Below, piece after piece: positions 52,905 to 56,962 of a stretch of DNA of 59,266 nucleotides; the first letter of the stretch is position 1, and each line of letters begins with the position of its first letter. Made by a program: the position numbers and the translations under genes. Origin of the DNA: an uncultured Desulfomonile sp. (GTDB lineage: Bacteria > Desulfobacterota > Desulfomonilia > Desulfomonilales > Desulfomonilaceae). The notes under the pieces are model-generated. The model was not told the DNA's origin and searched no databases. It saw only the letters and a program-made list of their open reading frames with translations. The DNA is taken from the NCBI GenBank assembly GCA_903896745.1, contig CAITZA010000047.1, positions 1 through 59,266 on the forward strand, in the 5' to 3' direction.

Positions 52905-53681
52905 TTGACCCCCTTCAAGCAAACTGTTATCAGATCCGGTGTAACTCCGGTAACCTTTGTACTGATGATGTTCTTCCTGCATAATTCCTGTAGCTGCGCA
53001 TGGTCGATAAGCCCTTTTAACAACAGTGTTTCCACCAACCAGTCCATACCCGATCAAGGCTTAAATAGAGCGCGATCAGAACTGGAAAAAAGACAGTATG
53101 CTGCAGCGGTAAAAAGCTTGACTGACACCATAAAGTTACGCCCTGACCTCGCGGAAGCCTATTACCTTCGCGCCAGGTCACTGGATATGATGGGGCAGCC
53201 AATGCGCGCGCTGAAAGACATAAACAAATATATTGAATTGAAACCACAAGATCCAAAAGGTTATGTGCTCAAGGGAGATATCAACAATTTCAATCTGGAC
53301 CATAGAGAGGCCCTGGAAAATTACAGCTTGGCCTTGAAACTGGATTCAAGGATGGTTAATGCCAGGGTCGGTCGGGGGTTGGCCTACGCCGCTCTCGAAA
53401 AATATGATCTGGCTATAAAAGATTATGAAGAAGTAATCAAAGAGAACAAACATCATCACGAGGCGTTAAGTAACCTCGGTATGGCTCTGGCGCTTTCGGG
53501 AAGGACAGAAGAAGCGATTCAAAAACTTTCTGATGCCCTGGCTCTTGAACGAGATCTCGATTGGCGATCCAGACTCAAGAAACTCATTGATGAAATCTCT
53601 CAAGCGTTACCTGGTTCATACCAACAGAACAAGTGGCCGTCCGGAAAAGCTCCAAATCAAATACGGGAAAAACCGTGGTAG
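52905..53681 (+). CDS. Tetratricopeptide repeat protein, probably exported
   Basis: About 258 residues. A hydrophobic N-terminal segment (VTFVLMMFFLHNSCSCAW) looks like a signal peptide or lipoprotein signal. From about residue 50 to 220 five TPRs follow (GLNRARSELEKRQYAAAVKSL, AEAYYLRARSLDMMGQPMRAL, PKGYVLKGDINNFNLDHREAL and so on). The start is TTG 52905, or ATG 52965 just inside the hydrophobic stretch; neither has a strong ribosome site. It would act as a protein-binding scaffold at the envelope. Partner unknown. Confidence 0.75.
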   Translation: MTPFKQTVIRSGVTPVTFVLMMFFLHNSCSCAWSISPFNNSVSTNQSIPDQGLNRARSELEKRQYAAAVKSLTDTIKLRPDLAEAYYLRARSLDMMGQPMRALKDINKYIELKPQDPKGYVLKGDINNFNLDHREALENYSLALKLDSRMVNARVGRGLAYAALEKYDLAIKDYEEVIKENKHHHEALSNLGMALALSGRTEEAIQKLSDALALERDLDWRSRLKKLIDEISQALPGSYQQNKWPSGKAPNQIREKPW

Positions 53682-53705: not shown

Positions 53706-55040
53706 TTAAGAGCCACTAACCGAAACAGGCTCACACAACAAACTACAGGCGCCAATGTTTCCAAAATACTGGAAGTCATTTCCTACTTCAATTAACTTGC
53801 CAAACAGGTCAATAACATTTCCAGCAATCGCTATACCCCTCACAGGATGTTCAATCGTCCCATTGGAAATCCTGAATCCGGACGCTCCAACTGAAAAATC
53901 GCCGCTAACAGGATTCGCAGTATGAAGACCCATGACTTCTGTAATCAACAAGCCGTTTGACATGACTTTCATCATTTGATCCAGGGTCAATTTGCCGGGC
54001 TCGATGAAAAAATTAGTAATTCCGCTAGTCGGCGGGGACTCAAAACCGGCTCGTCGACTGTTACCCGTAGAAGGTTGTGAGAACTTGGCTCCATAATACC
54101 GATCATAAAGCCACGACCTGACTTCTCCACCTTCTACAACAACCGTTTTCTGGGCAGGCGCCCCCTCTCCATCGAATCCAAAAGCAAGCTCGCCTCTCTC
54201 ATCCATACCGTCATCAATAATTCCAAGCTTTTCCGAAAAAAGTCTGGCTCCCCTGGTTATCAGGGGCGAAGCGGTTTTTTTGAAATGATTTTCCGCCACG
54301 AAAGAATTTGAGATAACCCCCAAGAAACCGGCTGCAGTCGTGTTTTCTAATATTACCGGCATCCTGTCTGATTTGATGGGGACGCCTCCGAGAGCTCCTA
54401 TGGCGCGTCTTGCCGCCTTTCTGGCTATCTGGCGAGGATCAATCCCAAGAGGGTCCCTATTCTGATCATACCAATATGAAGTTTCCTGCTCCCCGGATTC
54501 CTCTGCCATTAACTCCACCCATGCAGAACAAATTCCGGATTGACCCGAAATGTCAAGTCCGAAAGAATTTGCCATACGGACATGTGTGATGGAATCCACA
54601 TAACCGCTCGTCCTGGCGATCGAAATTCTTTTATCAAAAGCATAGGCTTCATTTTCAATGATCCTTGCGATCTCAATCTTGTCTCTTTCCGGCATAACAA
54701 GCAGGTGATCTTTCAGGAGGCCCGGCTTGAGTTCATAGTCGCTATAAGGTTTTGTGAAGCTTGCCGAATCGTCACGAGGCATCACAGTGGCTATATCTAG
54801 CGCATCAATTATTGTCTTTTCTATATTTTGAATTTCAGAAGAGGACGAAAAGGAAAAACCCGGTCGATAGTCCTTTATGACTCTAACAGCCATTCCCTTC
54901 AAATTGGATCTCTGGAGGGAATCAACTACGGAGCCTTTTACCTCAACCCTGAAACTTTGAGACGTGGTCAAGAAAATCTCCCAAGAATCTACTCGTTGTT
55001 TTGATATAAATGTCTTTGCATAATCCATGATGTCAGGCAT
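53706..55040 (-). CDS. pmbA: PmbA/TldE subunit of the TldD/E metalloprotease
   Basis: About 444 residues. It lacks the HExxxH zinc motif of TldD, so it is the TldE/PmbA partner, which together with TldD processes peptides such as microcins and antitoxins. SFRVEVKGSVVDSLQRSNLKGMAVRVI at the N-terminus and the C-terminal GLLITEVMGLHTANPVSGDFSVGASGFRI are family signatures. ATG 55040 with GAGAGG about eight bases upstream is preferred over the TTG at 55058. tldD is not in the window. Confidence 0.92.
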   Translation of the reverse strand: MPDIMDYAKTFISKQRVDSWEIFLTTSQSFRVEVKGSVVDSLQRSNLKGMAVRVIKDYRPGFSFSSSSEIQNIEKTIIDALDIATVMPRDDSASFTKPYSDYELKPGLLKDHLLVMPERDKIEIARIIENEAYAFDKRISIARTSGYVDSITHVRMANSFGLDISGQSGICSAWVELMAEESGEQETSYWYDQNRDPLGIDPRQIARKAARRAIGALGGVPIKSDRMPVILENTTAAGFLGVISNSFVAENHFKKTASPLITRGARLFSEKLGIIDDGMDERGELAFGFDGEGAPAQKTVVVEGGEVRSWLYDRYYGAKFSQPSTGNSRRAGFESPPTSGITNFFIEPGKLTLDQMMKVMSNGLLITEVMGLHTANPVSGDFSVGASGFRISNGTIEHPVRGIAIAGNVIDLFGKLIEVGNDFQYFGNIGACSLLCEPVSVSGS

Positions 55041-55165
55041 TGTCGATTCCTCTCTCAAGTCCGGGTATCAAATTTTGGTTGTTCGCCATTACTATTAATT
55101 CATATCTCCAGGATCATCAACAGGATTGAAAACCCCTGTATTGAAAAATTTGTTCAGGGACAATC

Positions 55166-55194
55166 TTGACAGAAAAAGGATTCTCCTTTAATAT
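55166..55194 (+). promoter_or_regulatory. Strong promoter ahead of a leader RNA
   Basis: TTGACA (55166-55171), 17 bases, TAATAT (55189-55194). Both boxes are near perfect, so transcription should start at about 55201. Confidence 0.7.
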
Positions 55195-55210
55195 CGATAC
55201 AGAGGCAAAA

Positions 55211-55279
55211 ATGGTCAGCCAGTGCGAATCATCCTATTATTTTTATTTTAGCAACAGGATAGAGGCGCGTCTTCGCTGA
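55211..55279 (+). CDS. Possible aromatic-rich leader peptide
   Basis: A 22-residue frame, MVSQCESSYYFYFSNRIEAR and two more, with AGAGG five bases before the ATG and only about ten bases after the predicted transcription start. It contains five aromatic codons in a row (Tyr-Tyr-Phe-Tyr-Phe). A leader peptide sensing aromatic aminoacyl-tRNA would look like this, but AT-rich DNA also produces such codons by chance. Confidence 0.3.
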   Translation: MVSQCESSYYFYFSNRIEARLR

Positions 55280-55307
55280 CTGTAACTATATCATATTATT
55301 ACAAAAA

Positions 55308-55332
55308 GCGGAGCGCAAACTCCGCTTTTTTT
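55308..55332 (+). terminator. Intrinsic terminator between leader and GNAT fusion gene
   Basis: GCGGAG pairs with CTCCGC around CGCAAA, followed by seven T. The stem extends as A-T pairs (AAAA with TTTT). On the minus strand the preceding A run would likewise give a T run, so it may work both ways. Confidence 0.85.
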
Positions 55333-55384
55333 GTTTTATGAAATGAGGTTCCCGGTTTTGCCTGGAACCATTTGAGGATTCAAC

Positions 55385-56962
55385 ATGAATGAACCAGCCA
55401 TAGACATTCTTGAACCAGCCCGAAAAAGATTGGGATTATCCGAAAAACTAAGTCTGATAAACTTGATTAGCGATGGCTTGCGTCATGATTCAGACAGTTC
55501 GCCTGTTTTTTCGGACCTTTTTCGTGAACTGGAAACTCTGGTCCATATCACAGTTTCCGGGGCCAAGGTTGATCGCCTCGAGGCTGATTACTCCAGAAAA
55601 GGTTTCAAGCACCTGGAGATCAATGCTGAGACTGGGGAGAATCTTGCACGATTAAATATGCTGTATCTAAAAAAACCCTTGCCCTGCTACTACCTGGTTT
55701 ATGTTGAAGTCGCGTCACCATTCCGCAAGAAAGGATTGGGAAATCTTATCCTCAAGGAATTTAGGGACTTTCTTCTGGAAAAATCTGCCGTCGGGGTTTT
55801 GGACAACATAATTCCGAAAGATGACCCAACTTTTGATATTTACCTCAAACTTGACTGGAAACCTTTGTGCGACATAACTGGTTATTTTGAAAATGGCCAT
55901 TCAGAAACTTACATGGTCTATTTACCACCGGCGTTTGCTGGAAAAGATGTTAAGGATTCGCTCGTCAAACTGGTACATCATCTTGTGAGAAAACGGCCTG
56001 CGATTGATATGCGTGACAACGAACTCATGGTGCAGCGCACTATCGAGGAATTCAAGGATCTTTATTCAGCTCTTCTGATGTATTTCGAAGATCAGATAAT
56101 TGAAGGAAACACCGATTCAGTTATGCGTTTCATGTTCACCAGGTTTGTCACAAAATTACTCGGGTTTCGCAGGAGAATTTCCAAATTGCTCGGTTACACC
56201 GGTGGTGAGTCCATGGAACAGATCCCGCTCCATCCGGAGATTCGCAACATCATGGCTCAATCTTACGCTCCGAGGGAATTCAGAAGTAAACTGACTTTCA
56301 TCACTGGAGACAAGGAACTCTGGTTGATTTTACCTGAAGCCCTGAAAAATCATCCGGCAAGGTTCATTGAAGCTCTAAACAATTATCAGAGACCGTCATT
56401 GGCTTCCTGGTTGGTTGCAAATGGAAAGTCCTCGGCTTCAGATTTGACTCTTGGCGATCTGATAGATTTGGGGTTTGATCCCACCCGTCTCAAGGAATTG
56501 TCGCTCGACGGACAGGAATACATATTTGAACGCATACAGGGGCAAATGGTCGAGAACACCGACCTTAAAATGGAACTTCTGGAACTGGCCGAACGAAAAA
56601 TGAGTTCTCTTAAAATAAAAAATACGAATGTGAGGATAAACAAACCGCTATTGGTGATCAAAGATAGAGGCAATGGGTACATCCTGCGGAAAAAGGTCGA
56701 AGGCATTCATTGGGAAGAAGCTGTCGAGCAATTACAAACATCTCCAGAATTGAAGGAACTCAATTCGGGCATGCGCCTTGACCGAATGATCAAGAAACTG
56801 ACCACCAAGACCTTTGAAAAAATCCAGAGCATGGTTGGCAAAGACATAGGGCAGGTCATAGACCCGGCGGGTTTCTTCGTTTCCTGGGATATAGCGGGTA
56901 ACAGGCCCAGGCTTGTTGTAGACATGGGTGGAGTCTATTTTGAAAATATGTGGATATCGTAA
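55385..56962 (+). CDS. GNAT-fold protein with large unknown C-terminal region
   Basis: A 525-residue protein. At about residues 90-175 there is a GNAT acetyltransferase-like core: YYLVYVEVASPFRKKGLGNLIL carries the acetyl-CoA pyrophosphate loop (R-K-K-G-L-G), followed by KEFRDFLLEKSA. About 60 residues precede it. The remaining 350 residues are mostly helical and charged, contain LTLGDLIDLGFDP, DRMIKKLTTKTFEKIQSMVGKD and end in VDMGGVYFENMWIS, and belong to no family I recognise. TTGAGGATT lies before the ATG. It sits downstream of a promoter-leader-terminator unit, so its expression may be attenuated. A terminator of the opposite gene follows directly. Confidence 0.75.
   Translation: MNEPAIDILEPARKRLGLSEKLSLINLISDGLRHDSDSSPVFSDLFRELETLVHITVSGAKVDRLEADYSRKGFKHLEINAETGENLARLNMLYLKKPLPCYYLVYVEVASPFRKKGLGNLILKEFRDFLLEKSAVGVLDNIIPKDDPTFDIYLKLDWKPLCDITGYFENGHSETYMVYLPPAFAGKDVKDSLVKLVHHLVRKRPAIDMRDNELMVQRTIEEFKDLYSALLMYFEDQIIEGNTDSVMRFMFTRFVTKLLGFRRRISKLLGYTGGESMEQIPLHPEIRNIMAQSYAPREFRSKLTFITGDKELWLILPEALKNHPARFIEALNNYQRPSLASWLVANGKSSASDLTLGDLIDLGFDPTRLKELSLDGQEYIFERIQGQMVENTDLKMELLELAERKMSSLKIKNTNVRINKPLLVIKDRGNGYILRKKVEGIHWEEAVEQLQTSPELKELNSGMRLDRMIKKLTTKTFEKIQSMVGKDIGQVIDPAGFFVSWDIAGNRPRLVVDMGGVYFENMWIS

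Follow-up and report, generated by a model that had tools for sequence, protein, structure and literature searches.

A conserved Phe/Tyr leader peptide suggests attenuation control of a GNAT-domain gene family in Desulfobacterota

The region ahead of a GNAT-domain gene in the window (the whole 59,266-nucleotide stretch of Desulfomonile sp. DNA analyzed here) is, we predict with high confidence, a ribosome-mediated transcription attenuator responding to charged Phe/Tyr tRNA. Its target, the gene behind it, would very probably be turned on by a shortage of phenylalanine or tyrosine. Conserved leaders, mutually exclusive pairings, similar leaders ahead of DAHP-synthase genes and linkage of the target to pheA together point to an attenuator of the pheL/trpL type with a new target. 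The reading frame, its aromatic codons, the exclusive pairings, the predicted terminator and the target gene are conserved in sequence comparisons; promoter use, ribosome stalling, derepression and the nature of the signal as Phe/Tyr we infer from the known mechanism. The features of the region are as follows.

55166 to 55194, forward strand: sigma-70-type promoter-like site, TTGACA-17-TAATAT, score 10/12; in most relatives, too, a TTGACA(A) box lies upstream of the leader
55201 to 55205, forward strand: Shine-Dalgarno-like AGAGG of the leader ORF, read from the sequence, at the predicted RNA 5' end
55211 to 55279, forward strand: leader peptide ORF MVSQCESSYYFYFSNRIEARLR with stop codon TGA; homologous leaders in relatives
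55211 to 55234, forward strand: region 1, predicted to pair with region 2 (-25.0 kcal/mol)
55235 to 55249, forward strand: putative regulatory codons TAT TAT TTT TAT TTT (Tyr-Tyr-Phe-Tyr-Phe); Phe or Tyr in relatives
55256 to 55284, forward strand: region 2, including the leader stop codon; predicted partner of region 1 or, through 55266-55278, of region 3
55306 to 55317, forward strand: region 3, the terminator 5' arm and part of its loop; predicted antiterminator 2:3, -16.2 kcal/mol
55303 to 55338, forward strand: predicted intrinsic terminator (3:4), stem 55303-55330 plus U-tract; stem kept in relatives
55385 to 56962, forward strand: the putatively regulated gene, encoding a 525-aa protein whose GNAT domain is N-terminal (about residues 74-180) and is followed by a C-terminal part of 340 aa
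56977 to 57002, strand not assigned: hairpin behind the GNAT gene, with its T-run on the reverse strand as predicted; no forward-strand use is assigned

An earlier note, made from the letters of the region, had described a promoter motif, a 22-codon aromatic-rich frame and a strong terminator 53 bases before the GNAT gene, and all three are present. The promoter-like site consists of TTGACA (55166-55171), a 17-nt spacer and TAATAT (55189-55194) and is the top-scoring such site within its 6 kb, although promoter-like sites in general show no enrichment, with 13 against an expected 10.2. The leader ORF starts with an ATG at 55211, 5 nt behind the AGAGG, and ends with a TGA at 55277-55279; AGGAG-type sequences occupy the corresponding place in relatives. 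Codons 9-13 form the Tyr-Tyr-Phe-Tyr-Phe run; the 59 kb of the window, read in all six frames, contain no other run of five consecutive Phe or Tyr residues. Locally shuffled windows (60 trials) contained 0.3 aromatic mini-ORFs per window, and none with a terminator. The terminator stem has 11 pairs and a 6-nt loop, and 53 nt separate the end of its T-run from the ATG of the GNAT gene (55385). The predicted folding energy of the complete leader RNA is -41.9 kcal/mol, which corresponds to z = -4.3 relative to dinucleotide shuffles; taken separately, the stem around the aromatic codons reaches z = -3.2 and the terminator z = -4.8. At the gathering threshold no Rfam family matched the leader, and permissive thresholds gave nothing convincing and no T-box. 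Elsewhere in the vicinity, a small inverted repeat (GGTTCC/GGAACC, 55347-55369) lies ahead of the GNAT gene's own Shine-Dalgarno sequence, GAGGA (55374-55378); a gene for a PmbA/TldD-type protein (53706-55058, reverse strand) is divergent from the leader, and a TPR-repeat gene (52905-53681, forward strand) lies beyond it.

Three segments of the leader RNA can form mutually exclusive pairings: 1:2, 2:3 (the antiterminator) and 3:4 (the terminator). Across 24 leaders compared, cognate partners pair more strongly than swapped ones, both for 1:2 (mean -18.5 vs -14.8) and for 2:3 (mean -15.2 vs -12.6), and none of 20000 permutations reached the observed means, counts that serve as a guide and not as true probabilities because the relatives are not independent. 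The sequence of region 2 varies among these leaders (GCGTCTTCGCT, CTGCTGCGCT or TAGTGTGTG), yet the partners still match. When region 1 was masked, as it would be under a stalled ribosome, and the nascent RNA extended up to region 3, the 2:3 pairing folded in 21 of the 24; the three in which it did not fold on its own (L026, L030, L043) are near-identical to one another, and 1:2 pairing is weak in a few others (L024, L025). Masking region 2, which mimics a ribosome at the stop codon, allowed the terminator to form. Once the full-length RNA is folded to equilibrium while region 1 is masked, the terminator is no less stable than the antiterminator; the switch must therefore act during transcription, like known attenuators. 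In an alignment of 26 sequences the terminator pairs are kept in 99.6% of cells, and the stop codon of the window's leader lies within region 2. The distance from stop codon to terminator arm is 24-42 nt in the 24 leaders.

Searching with the leader DNA returned matches directly upstream of homologous GNAT genes in relatives, and a protein search located the GNAT gene in another 15 members of the family and in several distant genomes. Of 395 sampled genomes of the phylum, 30 have the gene. Within the family, the leader precedes the GNAT gene in 16 of the 16 genomes with a readable gene start (our own included), each time as an ORF of 20-24 codons that contains a Tyr/Phe run and ends in a stop codon ahead of a terminator. 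Beyond it, a Phe/Tyr leader stands before the gene or at the head of its operon in most homologs with readable upstream sequence, for example MNDFFLNPYYFYFYFYSGVCPD (L121) and MTERDYQFGLFYFYYFRNRSAFLCQGI (L125); LFFYF lies in the leader ahead of a fused form of the gene (L133), and FFFFFVF ahead of the adjacent upstream gene in L135. No leader is visible before the distant homologs L038, L044, L058, L120 and L136, and those of L117 and L127 are weak. Gene neighborhoods vary between genera, indicating that the leader travels with the GNAT gene. Two early matches of the DNA search (L014, L017) were set aside, as the T-rich run seems to have matched them by chance. The conservation of hairpin and frame in relatives, which the earlier note had named as a check on its attenuation reading, thus leaves that reading standing.

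All 24 compared leaders have 20-24 codons and a Tyr/Phe run, in which 71 Tyr and 64 Phe account for most of 148 codons; a single Trp occurs in the 24 peptides together. Wherever two leaders both have Phe or Tyr in a column, codon position 1 is invariant, second positions differ only by the exchange of Tyr and Phe, and all third-position differences are synonymous, a pattern expected if selection acts on the aromatic residue, be it Phe or Tyr, and not on a fixed DNA word. Right behind the aromatic codons, 18 of the 24 leaders carry a Shine-Dalgarno-like AGGAGG run (at least 5/6 matches), a feature noted at L049, L050, L053, L054, L056, L110, L111 and L116; in one group of leaders an in-frame ATG, a further codon and the stop come next. 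Such a run might keep a ribosome over region 2 or let it restart there.

Aromatic leaders precede other genes as well. A covariance model trained on 23 GNAT leaders and three CoA-transferase leaders, the latter first spotted through their shared terminator, found further leaders in the window's family before CoA-transferase and DAHP-synthase genes. The CoA-transferase, a class III enzyme of the CaiB/BaiF type, is preceded by a leader of its own, which combines Phe-only runs, such as MVNTIRGFFCFFSFRRSTCVT, with the shared terminator (L009, L016, L018, L096, L097, L098). The DAHP-synthase leaders of relatives mostly carry Phe/Tyr/Trp runs such as MHQTRQFSASSYYYWWYFYFYPPEVGARS, and in several genomes that gene is followed by genes for prephenate dehydrogenase and EPSP synthase (names read by eye from the sequences). 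As the training set contained no DAHP-synthase leader, their recovery is an independent check of aromatic amino-acid attenuation. A protein search of the window's own genome located a DAHP synthase-pheA pair (L105, contig C216; DAHP synthase and chorismate mutase-prephenate dehydratase, confirmed by Pfam) preceded by a Phe/Tyr leader, MELFQFKFRFFYFCFYYYYVYLPMRSGLTA, and a CCATGGGC-type terminator; judged by its sequence, this leader is a canonical aromatic attenuator. The aromatic codons thus differ by target class: Phe before the CoA-transferase, Phe/Tyr before the GNAT gene and Phe/Tyr/Trp in most DAHP-synthase leaders. The covariance model found no second copy of the leader type in the own genome, its sole other match being to the terminator of this leader read on the opposite strand, and no close homolog of the Phe-leader CoA-transferase was found in that genome (31% identity at best), which is 95% complete. 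In the pheA region of L144 (G012), the gene is preceded by a GC-rich stem and by a frame, TVSGFFAFWRFFSLDPPG, that is Phe-rich and resembles a leader.

The target is assigned to the GNAT acyltransferase superfamily by its predicted fold and CoA-binding loop, and acyl-CoA-dependent transfer is its putative activity. The GNAT label is weak for the window sequence alone (Pfam E = 0.06) and sound for the family, in which Acetyltransf_1 is matched by 23 of 27 members (best E 7e-7). Foldseek likewise returned a GNAT fold (E 1e-4 to GNAT enzymes), and the CoA-binding loop R-x-x-G-x-G is present, with R114, G117 and G119 invariant or nearly so. Searches of PDB sequences with the protein and with the family profile gave a sub-threshold GNAT match only, and no NCBIfam family scored above cut-off for the protein. 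The C-terminal 340 residues are conserved and have no close solved relative. Folded alone, this part matched protein kinases only; all matches of the predicted fold for 55937-56959 (E 0.003, TM-score about 0.24) are below a safe threshold, and we do not claim a kinase-like domain. The part may be a degenerate kinase-like lobe, or the likeness may be due to chance.

Genomic context suggests where this protein acts. In family f9 (L129, L130, L131) the GNAT gene lies directly behind pheA; in L130 the order is aroA'-aroB'-aroD-aroE-aroA-aroK-aroC-pheA and then GNAT, with trpE and trpG further on. The first two genes encode 2-amino-3,7-dideoxy-D-threo-hept-6-ulosonate synthase and 3-dehydroquinate synthase II, aroK encodes shikimate kinase, and an aromatic leader, MDQLHHLNFSSGFYFYWFFYAGICPLPRADH, heads this shikimate operon. 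In two other families (L142, L143) the end of the GNAT gene overlaps the start of a CoA-transferase gene. A metallo-beta-lactamase-fold protein is fused to the GNAT protein in L133, L134 and L136 and is its neighbor in L135; by sequence, its nearest solved relative is PqsE, a 2-aminobenzoylacetyl-CoA thioesterase. Taken together, its regulation, its operons with pheA and the shikimate genes and its association with a CoA-transferase point to aromatic amino-acid metabolism as the probable field of the family, and the protein most likely acts in that of Phe/Tyr. Its step is probably CoA-dependent; CoA chemistry is plausible, as the links to a class III CoA-transferase and a PqsE-like hydrolase point to it. 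A role as a replacement for prephenate dehydratase was considered and ruled out, as the canonical enzyme (PheA) is also encoded in the nine genomes tested.

Alternatively, the GNAT protein could be unrelated to aromatic metabolism, the product of a starvation-response gene that borrows an attenuator and, for example, acetylates proteins or tRNA when charging falls. Throughout the window's family the gene is monocistronic and lies apart from aromatic genes, GNAT proteins act on many substrates, and the nine genomes examined keep a canonical PheA, so that this enzyme has not been replaced. The position of the gene beside pheA in the shikimate operon of family f9 weighs in the other direction, as do its operons with a CoA-transferase that elsewhere has a Phe leader of its own, and we regard a general starvation role as unlikely, albeit the most serious of the alternatives weighed here. 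On the side of aromatic metabolism, a more specific proposal is tentative: the GNAT protein, the CoA-transferase and the PqsE-like hydrolase might form an unrecognized CoA-linked route of Phe/Tyr supply or salvage in Desulfobacterota, for instance by aryl-acid activation, switched on by Phe/Tyr attenuation. We would sooner expect this route not to exist in that form than to exist.

The proposed regulation would operate as follows. RNA polymerase would start near 55201, and a ribosome would translate the 22-codon leader. Were charged Tyr- or Phe-tRNA scarce, the ribosome would stall at codons 9-13 (55235-55249) and cover region 1, so that 2:3 would pair, the terminator would not form and the GNAT gene would be transcribed. 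With charged tRNA plentiful, it would reach the stop codon in region 2 and block that region, allowing the 3:4 terminator to form. Without translation, 1:2 would form and the terminator would again win. As a counterpoint to this model, the predicted RNA start leaves the Shine-Dalgarno sequence of the leader at the extreme 5' end.

The same switch RNA would be expected if the leader were an arrest peptide responding to a small molecule or to its nascent chain and not to uncharged Phe/Tyr tRNA, and in most leaders the aromatic codons are indeed followed by an Arg/Gly/Ser stretch as well as the purine run described above. Phe and Tyr nevertheless swap freely and the remaining peptide is variable, unlike in arrest peptides, and the aromatic codons differ among the three target classes; we therefore consider such a peptide very improbable. 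Slightly less credible still is the alternative offered in the earlier note, under which the 130-nt transcript would be an independent small RNA, with the mini-ORF and the nearness of the GNAT gene incidental. A promoter-like site of its own, a strong terminator and a stable fold would suit a small RNA, and the two would look alike in RNA-seq, where a terminated leader would itself accumulate. This idea is disfavored because the leader always lies ahead of, and on the same strand as, the same gene despite differing neighborhoods, because its coding signature, aromatic codons and mutually exclusive pairings are conserved and because the same architecture recurs ahead of DAHP-synthase operons. 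Least probable is control by translation coupling or some other leader effect: the 53-nt gap between terminator and gene, with its GGTTCC/GGAACC repeat (55347-55369) before the Shine-Dalgarno sequence, would allow it, but the aligned leaders retain their U-tract terminator, and it is the 5' arm of this terminator that region 2 pairs with in 2:3.

Attenuation at the level of transcription is thus the reading we retain. The resemblance to amino-acid attenuation that the earlier note saw in the Tyr-Tyr-Phe-Tyr-Phe run is borne out by a leader peptide, aromatic codons, antiterminator and terminator that are conserved with the gene in many genera, and its suggestion of a new attenuation target gains from the conserved leader before the GNAT gene and the shared architecture of the DAHP-synthase operons. 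The mechanism itself is known; the target, its family and a regulon of this kind in Desulfobacterota appear unreported, as a literature search covering mainly openly accessible papers and little of the subscription literature returned no report of the leader, the target family or the regulon in the phylum. The attenuator shows to which signal a highly conserved 525-aa family, otherwise lacking annotation, would respond, and the probable assignment to aromatic metabolism makes the function of the family testable by growth and metabolite experiments. With it, Phe/Tyr attenuation in the phylum would cover at least three classes of genes.

Among known systems, the pheL-type attenuators of E. coli switch between alternative 1:2, 2:3 and 3:4 hairpins. 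The leader described here resembles those of E. coli pheL-pheA and pheST in combining a peptide rich in the regulating amino acid with alternative hairpins and an intrinsic terminator, and differs from them in its mixed Tyr and Phe codons and in its target, an uncharacterized GNAT-domain gene; attenuation in both E. coli systems senses charged Phe-tRNA (PMC11802643). In the aroR-aroF system of Corynebacterium glutamicum, the AroR leader carries Phe-Tyr-Phe before aroF, which encodes a DAHP synthase, and limitation of Phe is effective whereas that of Tyr is not (PMC11802643). Mixed Phe/Tyr codons before a gene are common to that system and ours, a likeness of layout only; the phylum is different and the target there is DAHP synthase. 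T-box and other Rfam leaders likewise regulate amino-acid genes in cis through a terminator and antiterminator, but the T-box has a tRNA-binding domain in the place of a translated leader, and the present leader has no convincing Rfam match. The layout described here recurs in the leaders of DAHP-synthase(-pheA) genes in the same family and in the own genome, which share the aromatic leader ORF and the terminator with a GC stem and, in the relatives, also the Shine-Dalgarno-like run after the aromatic codons; most of the relatives' leaders differ in containing Trp, and the DAHP-synthase leaders precede canonical biosynthetic genes.
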